From assembly GCA_022712845.1 (NCBI GenBank), contig JAFLJV010000025.1:1-8829 (forward strand): a DNA stretch of 8,829 nucleotides. The letters run 5' to 3'. The notes beneath the pieces are model-generated. The model searched no databases, was not told the origin of the DNA, and was given only the letters and a program-made list of their open reading frames with translations. Source of the stretch: Sulfurimonas sp. GTDB taxonomy: Bacteria > Campylobacterota > Campylobacteria > Campylobacterales > Sulfurimonadaceae. Numbering within the stretch: position 1 is the first letter of the stretch; the number at the start of each line of letters is the position of its first letter. Positions 2,468-8,776 of the stretch are shown here, piece after piece. A program made the position numbers and the translations under genes.

Positions 2468-2731
2468 TTATGCACTCTTAAGAGCCTTTGTTAAAAACAT
2501 TTTTATTAAAGACTGATATGGTACATCCATTGCATTTGCTTTAATTTTTAACTCTTCTATCATATCAACAGGTAAACGAAGAGATATACTTTTTGTTGTT
2601 TTTTTAAGATTAGCAAAACGTACTGATTTTACTTTATCCATATCAAAATACTCAGTTACATCATTAGTATTCCAAAAAATAGCTTCATCTTCTTCACTCT
2701 TAAATACTGGTGCTGTTTTAAGCTTTTTCAT
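2468..2731 (-). CDS. brnA: BrnA-type antitoxin (CopG/ribbon-helix-helix)
   Basis: This 87-residue protein is the presumed antitoxin of the adjacent BrnT. The N-terminal half has the PVFKSEEDEAIFW segment (8-20) typical of BrnA/CopG-type antitoxins. The C-terminal half is the ribbon-helix-helix DNA-binding region: SISLRLP beta strand (48-54), helix DMIEELKIKANAMD, then VPYQSLIKMFL (70-80). In this family the antitoxin binds the toxin and represses its own promoter. The gene overlaps the end of brnT by 14 nt, the normal toxin-first order for BrnTA. AAGGAG inside the brnT end lies 10 nt before its ATG. Its stop codon abuts the ribF ATG. The two palindromes upstream of brnT are the likely binding sites (inference). 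Confidence 0.88.
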   Translation of the reverse strand: MKKLKTAPVFKSEEDEAIFWNTNDVTEYFDMDKVKSVRFANLKKTTKSISLRLPVDMIEELKIKANAMDVPYQSLIKMFLTKALKSA

Positions 2732-3023
2732 AAATAATTTTCTCCTTTTTGCTCATACTTATAGCAGATATCACTCTAATATGTTTATCTCTCACCGTAA
2801 AAACTACTGTTATAAGTTCATCATAATCATTTTTACCAAGCCCAACACAACGACACTCATCATTTGAGTGTTTAAAATCTTTTACTACTAATAGTGGTTC
2901 ATTAAAAAAAACTTCCTCGATTGTACTCCATTTTAAACCATGCTTATTCTCATTTTTATGAATATTACCTTCATCCCATTCGAATCCTATGATTAAATCG
3001 ATATCTAAACAATCAAATTTCAT
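2718..3023 (-). CDS. brnT: BrnT-family toxin (RelE-fold ribonuclease, DUF497)
   Basis: This 101-residue protein matches the BrnT/DUF497 pattern: FEWD (14-17), NENKHGL (24-30), EVFFNEP (37-43), ECRCVGLG (56-63), VVFTVRDKHIRVISA (73-87) and a basic KKEK end. BrnT toxins are small RelE-like ribonucleases that cleave RNA and stop growth until BrnA neutralises them. A strong AAGGAG ribosome site (3028-3033) lies 4 nt before the ATG, and a consensus promoter is just upstream. One departure: the common family end is ISAR followed by a basic stretch, whereas here ISA is followed by Ile88, so the usual Arg is missing. Whether that arginine matters for activity here is unknown; other basic residues (Arg58, Arg78, Arg83) remain. 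Confidence 0.88.
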   Translation of the reverse strand: MKFDCLDIDLIIGFEWDEGNIHKNENKHGLKWSTIEEVFFNEPLLVVKDFKHSNDECRCVGLGKNDYDELITVVFTVRDKHIRVISAISMSKKEKIIYEKA

Positions 3024-5785: not shown

Positions 5786-5817
5786 TTCACAATTAATTCA
5801 CATAAAATAGTTATAAT
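5786..5817 (+). promoter_or_regulatory. Promoter with direct-repeat activator box upstream of the 84-aa secreted protein
   Basis: Two copies of TTCACA (5786-5791 and 5797-5802) lie 11 bp apart, followed by 9 bp and a perfect TATAAT (5812-5817). No standard -35 exists; the direct repeat occupies that place. OmpR/PhoB-family regulators bind tandem half-sites of 10-11 bp in this position. The same layout recurs at 6261-6292. The ligA promoter must lie in the same 113-bp divergent gap on the other strand, but I see no convincing hexamer pair for it. Confidence 0.75.
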
Positions 5818-5845
5818 ATTTAAAATAAAAACAAAGGTTTAAAAT

Positions 5846-6100
5846 ATGAAAAAAATTTTACTAATCTCTACATTATTTGTTAGCGTATGTTTTGCAGATG
5901 ATAGCTTTGCAAAACATGAAGCAAAAATGAAACAGATACAAGAGCGTACAATGACTCAAGAGAATCAAGGCTCAGGTGAACAAAAAAGAAATAGATATAG
6001 ATATAAAAATGGTGGTAATCAATCAGAACATTCTGGTCCACAAGATGGAACGGGCAATCAATTCAAAGGTTCTAATGGCGGAGATAGAGGACGAAGATAG
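5846..6100 (+). CDS. Small exported low-complexity protein of unknown function
   Basis: I do not recognise this 84-residue protein. Residues 1-17 (MKKILLISTLFVSVCFA) form a typical Sec signal peptide with probable cleavage after Ala17 (CFA/DD). No cysteine follows the site, so it is not a lipoprotein. Residues 18-40 look helical and charged (KHEAKMKQIQERTMTQEN). The rest (41-84) is disordered-looking and rich in Gly, Asn, Gln and Arg, ending GGDRGRR. The mature protein has no cysteine and no membrane segment, so it should be periplasmic or secreted. AAAGG lies 8 nt before the ATG. It has its own promoter with a TTCACA direct repeat shared with the next gene, so both are probably controlled by the neighbouring response regulator (inference). 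Confidence 0.75.
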   Translation: MKKILLISTLFVSVCFADDSFAKHEAKMKQIQERTMTQENQGSGEQKRNRYRYKNGGNQSEHSGPQDGTGNQFKGSNGGDRGRR

Positions 6101-6115
6101 TTCTCTAAAATAAAC

Positions 6116-6134
6116 GTGTCTCTTTTAGGGACAC
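6116..6134 (+). terminator. Hairpin after the 84-aa gene (weak terminator candidate)
   Basis: GTGTCTC and GGGACAC form a 7-bp stem with one G-U pair around a TTTTA loop, 16 nt after the stop codon. The DNA after the stem is A-rich, not T-rich, so this is not a classic intrinsic terminator for the plus strand; it may instead stabilise the 3' end of the transcript. Confidence 0.35.
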
Positions 6135-6260
6135 AAAACAAACATCATATAATTCTAAATTACACAATTCACTTACATATTTTTATAAAAAAATTATTCA
6201 TATAATAATAGCTATTTTCTATTTTTAGTTACAAGCAAAAATCATTCCTTTCTTTATAAA

Positions 6261-6292
6261 TTCACAATTATTTCACAGTTTTATTTTATACT
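6261..6292 (+). promoter_or_regulatory. Promoter with direct-repeat activator box upstream of the CxxC/Met-rich protein
   Basis: TTCACA at 6261-6266 and 6272-6277 (11-bp period) is followed by 9 bp and TATACT (6287-6292). The 17-bp box differs from the one at 5786-5802 at a single base, and the spacing to the -10 is identical. The distance from the -10 to the ATG is also nearly equal (29 against 28 bp). This is probably the main promoter of the operon running from 6322 to the cytochrome gene. The rest of the 221-bp gap (6101-6260) shows only AT-rich DNA and the hairpin at 6116-6134. Confidence 0.75.
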
Positions 6293-6321: not shown

Positions 6322-6636
6322 ATGGGTACGGGTTCATGTGGATCTTGCGGTTCATCGCAACAAATGCAAATGCAAAATATGTACGGTTCTGGCGGAGGTC
6401 AGGGTAAAGGCGGCATGAAAGATATCATGCAAAGTTTATCTACTGAAGATAGAGCAACGATGAAAGAGAGTCTTAGTTCTATGAGTCAAGAAGATAGAAT
6501 GGCAGCGGTCGCTCAAATGAAAGAAGTTGATGCAGCTGTTTTAAGTTCAGAAGAATATACTCAAGCACTTCTTGATATATTAGATGCATCTGTTACTAAC
6601 GAAGCGGAAACTGAAGGTTTTTCAGTATATGCATAG
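6322..6636 (+). CDS. Small CxxC- and Met-rich protein of unknown function
   Basis: I do not recognise this 104-residue protein. The N-terminus is Gly/Ser-rich with CGSCG (Cys6, Cys9), then a Met/Gln stretch MQMQNM (15-20) and a Gly-rich linker GSGGGQGKGG (22-31). Residues 32-90 look helical and hold a repeat: LSTEDR (39-44) and MSQEDR (54-59), 15 residues apart, each followed by an Ala/Met helix. There are ten Met in total. No signal peptide or membrane segment is seen, so it is probably cytoplasmic unless exported by another route. The CxxC with Met-rich stretch would suit metal binding or a redox switch, but that is a guess. AAGGAG is well placed upstream of the ATG. It leads the probable operon with the regulator, kinase and cytochrome, and its promoter carries the TTCACA direct repeat. 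Confidence 0.78.
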   Translation: MGTGSCGSCGSSQQMQMQNMYGSGGGQGKGGMKDIMQSLSTEDRATMKESLSSMSQEDRMAAVAQMKEVDAAVLSSEEYTQALLDILDASVTNEAETEGFSVYA

Positions 6637-6641
6637 TACTT

Positions 6642-6680
6642 TTTTAGGTATAATTTTTTATGAAAATTTTATACCTAGAA
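6642..6680 (+). promoter_or_regulatory. Stem-loop holding the response regulator start codon
   Basis: A near-palindrome is centred on the ATG at 6660-6662. AGGTATAA (6646-6653) pairs with TTATACCT (6669-6676), TTTT (6656-6659) pairs with AAAA (6663-6666), and two T-T mismatches lie between; outer bases 6642-6645 pair with 6677-6680 (one G-U). The only ribosome-site-like AGG (6646-6648), 11 nt before the ATG, is in the stem and the ATG is in the loop. It could lower or regulate translation of the regulator; the right arm is coding, so part of the match may be chance. Confidence 0.4.
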
Positions 6681-7316
6681 GATGATGCCAATTTATCAGA
6701 AACAGTAGAAGAATTCCTCAATGATGAGGGCTTTGACGTAGTTGCTGTTTATGATGGAGAAGAAGCATTAGAAACTATTTACAAATATAACTTTGATATG
6801 CTCTTACTTGATGTGAATGTTCCTCAAATAAATGGATTTGAGCTATTAAAAGAACTCAGAAGTGCTGGTATTTCAACACCTGCTATTTTTACAACCTCAC
6901 TCAACAGTATTGATGATTTATCAAATGGATATAATTCTGGTGCTGATGATTACATAAAAAAACCATTCGCTTTAAAAGAGTTGCTATTTCGTATAAAAGC
7001 CCTTTTTAAAAGAGAATTTAAAATACAGAGTGAATTAATTAGAATAACAAAAGAAATTGATTTTAATACATACACAAATGAATTAATATATGATAAAAAA
7101 ACAATTTTATTAAACCCAAAAGAAGTACTGCTTTTAAAACTACTTTTAAAATATAAAAATGAATGCGTTACTTTTGAAAACATATATCAAAGTGTTTGGT
7201 CATATGATGAAACACATAGTGAAATGAGCTTACGAACTTATATAAAAAACTTACGTAAACATATAGGAAAAGAGAATATCCTTAGCATAAAAAAGGTAGG
7301 ATATAAACTTGTATAA
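6660..7316 (+). CDS. OmpR/PhoB-family response regulator
   Basis: This 218-residue two-component regulator has a receiver domain (1-118) and a winged-helix DNA-binding domain (about 125-218). The receiver shows the acidic pocket Asp8/Asp9, phosphoacceptor Asp51 in LLLDVNVP, the switch Thr78/Thr79 and Lys101 in KKPF. The effector domain has LNPKEVLLLKLLL (151-163), the recognition-helix region SLRTYIKNLRKHIG (190-203) and the closing wing IKKVGYKLV. The family binds tandem direct repeats as dimers. The TTCACA repeats at 5786-5802 and 6261-6277 are the obvious candidate targets, which would make the operon self-regulated (inference). It follows the CxxC protein by 23 nt and overlaps the kinase start. 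Its start codon lies in a predicted stem-loop. The signal and specific subfamily are unknown. Confidence 0.93.
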   Translation: MKILYLEDDANLSETVEEFLNDEGFDVVAVYDGEEALETIYKYNFDMLLLDVNVPQINGFELLKELRSAGISTPAIFTTSLNSIDDLSNGYNSGADDYIKKPFALKELLFRIKALFKREFKIQSELIRITKEIDFNTYTNELIYDKKTILLNPKEVLLLKLLLKYKNECVTFENIYQSVWSYDETHSEMSLRTYIKNLRKHIGKENILSIKKVGYKLV

Positions 7317-8456
7317 AAGTGAAAAGCAAACAATTACTTATGTACTAACCCTTTATCTAAGCTCTACACTACTACTAATCGCCACACTTTTCACCAGTTA
7401 CTATTTTTACAAGCAAGAACAACTTATACATGATGAAAAAAAGGTTCTAAAAGAGTATAGCATGGATATTGAAGACTCACTCGCCTCATTACATGAAGAT
7501 AATAACGAAAGGTATGAATACCCCAGGCTTGATAACTTTAACAGTGCTATTTATGACATAGATAAAAATCTAATCTTTTCAACACTTGATATACAAATGG
7601 ACAATATTGACAAAGAGTTTTTGTTTAAAGGTTCTAATTCTTATTATGTATCTTCTATCAAACCTTACTATTTAGGTGCTGCCTATACTGTTATTGAAAA
7701 AAAAAAAAACCTGTTAATATTTTAAATGATTTAATTACTCTTGCAATTGTCGTCATCATAATTACAATTATAACTTCATTGTTTCTAGTCAAACTTGTTT
7801 TAAAACCCATAAGAGATAATTTACACCTTCTTGATAATTTTATAAAAGACACAACTCATGAATTAAATACTCCTATTACAACAATTCTTGCAAATATTGA
7901 GACACTTGACGCACAAAATTGTAATGAAAAAACTATGAGAAAACTACAAAGAATTAAAGTTGCTTCAGCGACTATTTCCAACTTATATAAAGATTTGGTT
8001 TATCTTCTTCTAAATCATAAAATTTCATCTCAAAATGAAGAGTTGAATTTAGCTGAAATATTAAATCAAAGAGTACAATATTTTATGCAAATGGCAAATA
8101 TAAAAAATGTAAAACTACATGTAGATATAAAAGATGATGCATACTTTAATGCTGATAAACAAAAAATAGAGCGTTTGATAGATAACATACTCTCAAATGC
8201 AATTAAATATACAAATAAAAAAACTATCATAAATATTATTTTGACATCATCCATTTTATCAATTACAGATGAAGGTAAAGGGATGAGTGAGGATGAGATT
8301 AGTAAGATTTTTCAGAGATACAAAAGGTTTGATAAAACACAAGGTGGTTTTGGAATTGGATACAGTATTATCAAGTCAATTATTGATGAATACAATATAA
8401 AAATAAAGATACAATCTCAAATAAACAAAGGAACAAAGGTTACATTAAAATGGTAA
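7309..8456 (+). CDS. Membrane sensor histidine kinase, frame interrupted at an A13 run
   Basis: This is the partner kinase of the preceding regulator, overlapping it by 8 nt. The start is TTG at 7309, with AGGA 7 nt upstream. The first frame (7309-7725, 138 codons) encodes TM1 (about residues 9-32) and a periplasmic sensor of about 100 residues, then stops at TAA 7723. The second frame resumes from 7710: PVNILND, TM2 (LITLAIVVIIITIITSLFLV), a short linker, the H-box TTHELNTPITTI with the phosphoacceptor His at 7857-7859, the N-box IDNILSNAIKY, the G1 box DEGKGM, the F-box IFQRYKRFD and the G2 box GGFGIGYSII. Joined, it would be about 382 residues, a normal kinase length. No full HAMP domain fits between TM2 and the H-box. 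A sequencing indel, phase variation, a true mutation or slippage are all possible. Without a shift, only a membrane-anchored sensor stub is made. Confidence 0.88.
7697..7709 (+). repeat. Run of 13 A at the kinase frame break
   Basis: Thirteen consecutive A lie where the two kinase frames meet. Restoring one frame needs 14 or 11 A. The upstream frame reads this end as AAA-AAC, so the last seven bases (7704-7710) form A-AAA-AAC, a known -1 slippery heptamer in the correct phase. The lower frame has a stop at 7695-7697 and the upper frame at 7723-7725, so any shift must occur in this short window. Confidence 0.85.
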
Positions 8457-8776
8457 AAACAACGCTGTTAATACTTATTTTATCAAGCTTTTTAAATGCT
8501 TCTTCATTTGAAAAAGAGTGTTTGTATTGTCATACTGATGATTTTAAATTTAATATGATGATGAAAAAATACACTACTAAATATAGCAGTGAAAGAAAAA
8601 TAAAAAAAGCGATATTTGAGTATCTTAAAAACCCTACACAAGACAAATCTGTTATGCCATTAGGATATATAAATAGATTTGGTATAAAAGAAAAAATAGA
8701 ATTAGATGATAAAACTTTAAAAGAGATGATAGGTATATATTATAAACAGTTTAATCTAAAATCTAAAATATATTAA
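8450..8776 (+). CDS. Small exported monoheme c-type cytochrome
   Basis: This 108-residue protein starts with a Sec signal peptide (MVKTTLLILILSSFLNA, cleavage near residue 17-18). The mature part opens with the heme c site CLYCH (Cys24, Cys27, His28), so heme would be attached in the periplasm. Met69 in SVMPLG is the best candidate for the second axial ligand; an unusual MMM lies at 36-38. It is small and has no second heme motif. The ATG overlaps the kinase stop (ATGGTAA), so translation is probably coupled and the protein likely belongs to the same pathway as the two-component system. It could be an electron carrier, or a redox partner for the sensor; the exact role is not known. Confidence 0.85.
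   Translation: MVKTTLLILILSSFLNASSFEKECLYCHTDDFKFNMMMKKYTTKYSSERKIKKAIFEYLKNPTQDKSVMPLGYINRFGIKEKIELDDKTLKEMIGIYYKQFNLKSKIY

Follow-up and report, generated by a model that had tools for sequence, protein, structure and literature searches.

The window (the whole stretch of 8,829 nucleotides of Sulfurimonas DNA analysed here) contains two unrecognised small genes, each preceded by nearly the same direct repeat. A response regulator is encoded right behind the second of them. This raises the question whether that regulator binds the repeats, and whether it thereby controls the small genes and itself. The features that matter for the answer are these:

5786..5802, plus strand: box 1, TTCACA-N5-TTCACA, found by scan and kept before sp84 homologues
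5812..5817, plus strand: -10 hexamer TATAAT, 9 bp past box 1, a spacing (N9) that is conserved
5846..6100, plus strand: sp84, a protein of 84 aa whose start looks, by eye, like a signal peptide and whose Gly-rich C-terminus is conserved
6233..6248, minus strand: sigma54-type promoter element matching 7/7 consensus positions, back to back with box 2, with 12 bp between them
6261..6277, plus strand: box 2, TTCACA-N5-TTCACA, found by scan
6287..6292, plus strand: -10 hexamer TATACT, 9 bp past box 2
6322..6636, plus strand: sp104, a protein of 104 aa; no signal peptide is apparent by eye, and its gene opens the regulator operon
6660..7316, plus strand: OmpR/PhoB-family response regulator, 218 aa
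7309..7725, plus strand: N-terminal piece of a sensor kinase, one hydrophobic stretch (by eye) followed by the sensor part
7697..7709, plus strand: run of 13 A, where the kinase reading frame is lost
7779..8456, plus strand: C-terminal piece of the sensor kinase, HisKA and HATPase_c, in another frame
8450..8776, plus strand: protein of 108 aa with one CxxCH (CLYCH) haem-type motif, the conserved next gene of the operon

The first-pass annotation had placed a PhoB/OmpR-type regulator downstream of the boxes, and the Response_reg and Trans_reg_C domains found there bear this out. Its ATG follows the sp104 stop after 23 bp. The closest regulator homologues that carry an organism name come from Sulfurimonas MAGs, at 75, 73 and 65% identity, and the regulator of genome G234 is 96% identical. 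Searches of PDB and plasmids returned general OmpR-family matches only.

The small genes say little about themselves. For sp84, Pfam gives only a sub-threshold glycine-rich match. sp104 has 107 homologues, and the few that are named at their source are nearly all called ‘hypothetical protein’. Neither sp104 nor the CxxCH protein has a Pfam or NCBIfam match above cutoff. The predicted fold of sp104 is helical at low confidence (mean pLDDT 66), and a structural search with the model finds nothing at an E value of 0.001 or lower.

The run of 13 A that splits the kinase is the longest homopolymer run listed for the window. None of the 24 kinase orthologues has a stop in the matched part, and in 21 of them the frame is open over 385 to 404 residues; the other three are short (115, 230 and 236 residues), with matches near contig ends. 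Of these orthologues the nearest, at 91% DNA identity, is intact. The run could stem from an assembly error, or it may be a slippery, length-variable and switchable tract. Elsewhere in the window, at 2468-3023 on the minus strand, two overlapping small genes have the look (by eye) of a BrnT/BrnA-like toxin-antitoxin pair.

Box 1 reads TTCACAATTAATTCACA and box 2 reads TTCACAATTATTTCACA; they are alike at 16 of 17 bases, and exactly 9 bases separate each from its -10. From the start of the box to the ATG it is 60 bp for sp84 and 61 bp for sp104. The promoters had been described as sharing a 17-bp direct-repeat box with a one-base difference, an 11-bp period, 9 bp to the -10 and a near-equal distance to the ATG, and all of this is exact. 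That the flanks are otherwise unlike is broadly right: according to a repeat finder, the similarity around the two boxes extends to 20 nt only. The same program picks up a third, weaker resemblance at 6160-6179 (80%), where the motif scan gives no box.

Within the window, the strength of this pattern depends on how much of it is demanded. The degenerate hexamer pair alone, at up to 2 mismatches, is found 2 times where 1.78 are expected, which is not rare in so AT-rich a window. The 17-mer at up to 3 mismatches is also found 2 times, against 0.37 expected, and 9 of 200 shuffles reach that number. For a box with 1 mismatch and a -10 with 2 mismatches at N9 spacing, 0.017 sites are expected on both strands together, and none of 300 shuffles reaches 2. 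The decisive evidence, though, is conservation and not the count in the window.

Relatives were picked by the sensor part of the kinase, which has orthologues of at least 47% identity in 24 of 228 family genomes. In the remaining genomes this identity is at most 39%, save for the second piece of the G136 gene. Loci from the 24 genomes were scanned together with locus L004, which makes 25 loci and 244,966 bases in all. A box was called with up to one mismatch in the box, up to two in the -10, and N9 between them.

The first-pass annotation had staked its regulon on the box being present at orthologous promoters that keep the regulator, and on the motif not occurring at random. At least one box is found in 19 of the 25 loci with an orthologous regulator/kinase pair. 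In total, box and -10 occur at 26 sites on the operon strand and at 0 on the other, compared with 0.15 per strand on average in 20 shuffles. With the window included, exact hexamer pairs number 23 at gap 5, 0 at any other gap from 0 to 14, and 1 at gap 15. Counting from the gap-5 pairs, a -10-like hexamer lies at distance 9 in 23 sites; the next highest count is 8, at distance 18.

Aligning 28 sites, including the two of the window, leaves both hexamers and, in the -10, positions 2 and 6 (nearly) invariant, with a variable N9 spacer and upstream flank. The site selection itself favours the hexamers, which gives the strand and spacing results more weight. In a direct comparison with G138, 15 of 17 box bases are kept at both small-gene promoters, against 4/9 or 3/9 in the N9 spacer and 21/60 or 29/60 in the 60 bp upstream.

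The box recurs at two positions. One is before the small genes, that is, homologues of sp84 and sp104 and their look-alikes. The other lies before an operon for a drug-type efflux pump, made up of TolC, MFP, MacB permease and MacB ATPase genes (Pfam names taken from L001 and L002), at 4.3 to 5.3 kb upstream of the regulator. Where all four genes lie upstream, which is the case in 13 loci, the box stands before TolC in 13/13. Eleven of these come from the main scan, three of them with one mismatch; the other two are G138 (one mismatch) and G223, from the genome-wide scan, with TolC downstream of the box. Anywhere in the genome, a boxed TolC gene is found in 17 of the 24 orthologue genomes, which adds G132, G226, G078 and G120; the genome-wide scan with a mismatch allowed covered only 13 of the 24.

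In the window, ligA stands where relatives have the efflux operon; so it does in L199 and partly in L262. G132, the genome to which L199 belongs, carries a boxed TolC gene on another contig, and by this analogy the genome of the window likely keeps its boxed TolC/MFP/MacB operon elsewhere too. Further boxed genes in orthologue genomes encode small EF-hand and DUF1104 proteins (scored with Pfam) and cytochrome-like and thioredoxin-like proteins (assigned by eye). The first-pass annotation had spoken of a local two-component regulon. The regulon holds up, but ‘local’ is too narrow, given the boxes before the efflux operon and before other small exported proteins.

Six of the 25 loci lack a box at one mismatch. 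L196 and L004 have versions with two mismatches. L196 is the nearest relative (regulator 96% identical) and its second half-site is degraded; a one-mismatch scan of its genome, covering 1.4 Mb, found no place. L257, which is without a box among the 25, starts inside sp104, as does L195, which is the same contig and was left out of the counts. L267 and L258 break off within the MacB or MFP gene and thus do not include the TolC promoter, but the small-gene promoters of L258 are without a box. L256 has no box in 10,877 bases; a boxed TolC gene is on another contig of the same genome.

The box also follows the regulator. The sp104 gene occurs in 42 of 228 family genomes; 30 loci were fetched, of which 29 are testable. 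Genomes with the regulator have the box there in 12 of 15 cases, compared to 0 of 14 for the others (Fisher 1.1e-5, on rows that include close relatives and are thus not independent). These figures enter G167 (locus L191; regulator 61% and kinase 39% identical) as regulator-bearing; reassigned as regulator-less, it changes the split to 12/14 versus 0/15. For sp84, all copies considered, the box is at 8 of 14 loci in regulator genomes and at 0 of 4 elsewhere, G071 being without a usable match.

Very probably, then, the regulator encoded at 6660-7316 binds at the two boxes; it is a DccR/CreB-type member of the OmpR family and would activate sp84 and its own operon. This was the regulon proposed by the first-pass annotation, and both the 19 of 25 loci and the sp104 comparison speak for it.

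The exact motif was also scanned for in 151 family genomes (the sp104, sp84 and kinase surveys used the 228). Exact box and -10 were found at 74 places in 53 of the 151 genomes, compared to 8 for the reversed pattern. Such sites are present in 13 of 16 genomes with an orthologous kinase, versus 40 of 135 without. With one mismatch allowed, 13 orthologue genomes yield 35 places and the reversed control 10, a weaker signal.

Who reads the sites in genomes without the orthologous kinase? Presumably related regulators. Those of L005, L008, L025 and L026 have one-mismatch boxes before their own genes and share an SLR-x-[YH]-[IV]-[KR] stretch of the presumed recognition helix. Each of five Sulfurimonas-family genomes has 5 to 11 DccR-like regulators, the orthologue included. 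Several regulators thus seem to share the operator architecture, which makes attribution by motif alone unsafe; the motif by itself does not pinpoint the neighbouring regulator.

This makes it conceivable that the sites are real activator sites mainly bound by one or more paralogous OmpR-family regulators, the neighbour being one of a cross-talking set. The 40 genomes just mentioned, the self-boxed regulators with their common helix stretch and the number of DccR-like regulators per genome all fit this, as do the genes that follow the sites: exported cytochromes, glycine-zipper proteins, TolC and copper genes (partly by eye). At these very promoters, however, the boxes co-occur tightly with the neighbouring regulator, which makes such an arrangement rather unlikely here, and the neighbour is kept as the probable binder.

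Three related observations can be placed here. L041, L044, L045 and L062 have TACACA-like direct repeats before related regulators, with the same gap of 5 and N9 to the -10, an apparent specificity shift on a fixed architecture. In L125-L129, L131, L132 and L140, a box with TATACT precedes an exported cytochrome-like family, with no CxxCH in the part shown (by eye); L125, the sole member tested, has no Pfam match. Lastly, L289, L294, L295 and L299 share a box that lies within the 3’ end of another kinase gene, with an ExbB-like gene some 220 bp further on (by eye). It was dropped as regulon evidence, since it may be conserved there as coding sequence.

Similar systems are known. Like the window, the DccRS system of Campylobacter has an adjoining OmpR-family regulator and sensor kinase, the kinase of the window being split. 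The DccR motif, attributed to Wosten in 2010, is reportedly WTTCAC-N6-TTCACW at the -35 position. We take the regulators of L029 and L038 to be Campylobacter DccR from the nearby GroEL/GroES-type motifs and the gene order of Campylobacter. The best matches of the window regulator in G157 and G158 (in the search of C. bilis and C. aviculae) are genes near such motifs, judged by contig position. In the reverse search with DccR of L029, the window-type regulator is the best match in 4 of 5 genomes, with a tie in G138. The window regulator is thus a near-reciprocal best match of DccR; the two are only 47-51% identical. In a gene tree the window clade (6 rows, 100/97) stands apart from the Campylobacter clade (7 rows, 99/92), and the backbone between them is weak (82/51).

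In six Campylobacter genomes, TTCAC-N6-TTCAC-N10-TANNNT occurs at 22 places, versus 0 in the control. Many of these are before small exported proteins (by eye), and the one with a Pfam match is PepSY_like. The DccR genes of L029 and L038 have no box within 700 bp, and C. bilis and C. aviculae have no boxed macA at one mismatch (16 places versus 3 in the control), both of which speak against a close parallel. According to PMC9449129, activated DccR enhances transcription in C. jejuni; that paper and PMC11365321 tie the C. jejuni DccRS (Cj1223c-Cj1222c) regulon to a small set of periplasmic and membrane proteins and link Cj0200c and the MacABC pump Cj0606-Cj0608 to it.

MacABC would thus be a target in both systems, if the 13/13 relatives with all four genes are the guide; none of it is visible in the window itself. 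There are differences too. The DccRS locus is near the GroEL/GroES-type motifs, whereas the window-type pair is beside sp104 and often beside MacABC. DccRS has PepSY targets, and sp84 and sp104 look unlike PepSY proteins; no Cj0200c-type PepSY protein was noticed among the genes listed downstream of boxes. The window also adds the CxxCH gene, and its lineage is free-living.

CreBC of E. coli and BlrAB of Aeromonas use the cre/blr-tag TTCAC-N6-TTCAC (PMC4689548 and PMC3660660), which is the conserved core of the window box. CreB is an OmpR-family regulator too, yet only 29% identical to that of the window, which scores 113.5 bits against a CreB equivalog cutoff of 273 (NCBIfam). By eye, no creD was noticed beside the pair, whether in the window or among the ORFs listed for L001-L003. 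PhoB likewise binds direct repeats of 11-bp period at -35, with another motif and other targets than the window box. It shares the OmpR-family fold with the window regulator, at 27% identity and with a score below the PhoB equivalog cutoffs. Membership of CreB or PhoB is ruled out by these cutoffs and identities. The motif is already known from CreB/BlrA (and, reportedly, from DccR), so the regulon is new as an instance and known as a type. Among the best-ranked matches in the open-licence PMC literature, no account of it in Sulfurimonas was found.

As for the mechanism, the placement, strand and conservation of the boxes, their link to the regulator and the identity of the genes are shown; binding, and activation over repression, are inferred. 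The phosphorylated regulator would dock as a dimer, head to tail over the two TTCACA half-sites, which the 11-bp period places on the same face of the helix. There it would occupy the place of the -35 and recruit RNA polymerase to the -10 nine bp downstream. According to PMC3847290, C. jejuni sigma70 promoters have no -35 sequence, which makes an activator box at that place natural. Box 1 would drive sp84. Box 2 stands before the regulator’s own operon, so autoregulation is the natural reading: it would drive sp104, the regulator, the kinase and the CxxCH protein, giving positive feedback. As first gene of that operon, sp104 is likely induced together with the regulator. Since the box in relatives also precedes the TolC/MFP/MacB operon, an envelope or efflux response is the probable role of the regulon.

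The position of the boxes by itself would also fit a regulator that represses, its site covering the -35 region. Against this, direct repeats in place of the -35 at a fixed distance to the -10 are the activator layout of PhoB, CreB and DccR. The enhanced transcription by activated DccR in C. jejuni (PMC9449129) points the same way. Repression is thus quite improbable, and activation by the regulator is retained.

A different protein altogether, DnaA, was considered because of a published TTCAC core: PMC5043019 and PMC6052347 give this as the core of the Epsilonproteobacterial DnaA box, with HHATTCACA in Sulfurimonas denitrificans, and they also have DnaA boxes scattered outside oriC. The half-sites would then be DnaA boxes, bound by DnaA instead of a response regulator. 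DnaA is, however, to be expected in every genome, yet there are 0 boxes in 14 at the sp104 family without the regulator. The fixed gap of 5, the -10 at distance 9 and the single strand would be unexpected for DnaA boxes. The hexamer is mostly preceded by a T or C (22/28 for the first half-site, 25/28 for the second) and not by the A of S. denitrificans. On co-occurrence and geometry, DnaA boxes were rejected as the main reading and seem very unlikely.

Chance repeats in AT-rich intergenic DNA, with which the expected frequency of the degenerate hexamer pair in the window would agree, are rejected as next to impossible by the strand bias of 26 to 0 and the conservation over 25 loci.

The promoter of sp104 holds one more element. 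The sigma54 consensus is GGaa-N6-tTGCTt, as given in PMC3847290. In the window, G234, G216 and G154 an element of this type stands reversed, 12-13 bp before box 2; G138 and G132 have a one-base variant of it. By comparison, 7 of the 15 sp104 loci flagged regulator-less have a forward element at -37 to -55. The opposite arrangement of orientation and regulator was seen in none of the sp104 loci compared. As background, 754,578 bases of loci hold, on the two strands together, 28 sites with a score of at least 6. The element was noted for L172, L173, L185 and L187-L190.

It is possible, though doubtful, that the sp104 family swapped master switches, from a forward sigma54 promoter to a DccR-type box, with the sigma54 element turned round behind it. 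Sigma54 polymerase and the response regulator, back to back, could compete for the same stretch or share it divergently. If true, this would be promoter rewiring caught in the act, possibly by inversion of a short palindrome-flanked element. The orientation of the element, into sp104 without the regulator and away from it with the regulator, makes the locus a natural experiment on changing a master regulator.

In L173, L185 and L187-L190 inverted repeats flank the forward element, and from one genome to the next their arms vary together (by eye). At 6116-6134 on the minus strand of the window there is a hairpin with a T-rich stretch, which could end a leftward transcript begun at the sigma54 element, some 100 nt in length. 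That the reversed element yields a small RNA was considered and set aside: the sequence is not conserved in the aligned relatives, and Rfam gives nothing credible.

For the family, the DccR-type reading of the boxes would mean that the DccRS/CreB-type regulon, which is little understood, extends from Campylobacter to free-living sulfur bacteria. Its conserved operator is searchable, and together with the recurring TolC/MFP/MacB pump as a target this suggests a purpose for the system. The small target families sp84 and sp104 would gain their first regulatory context.
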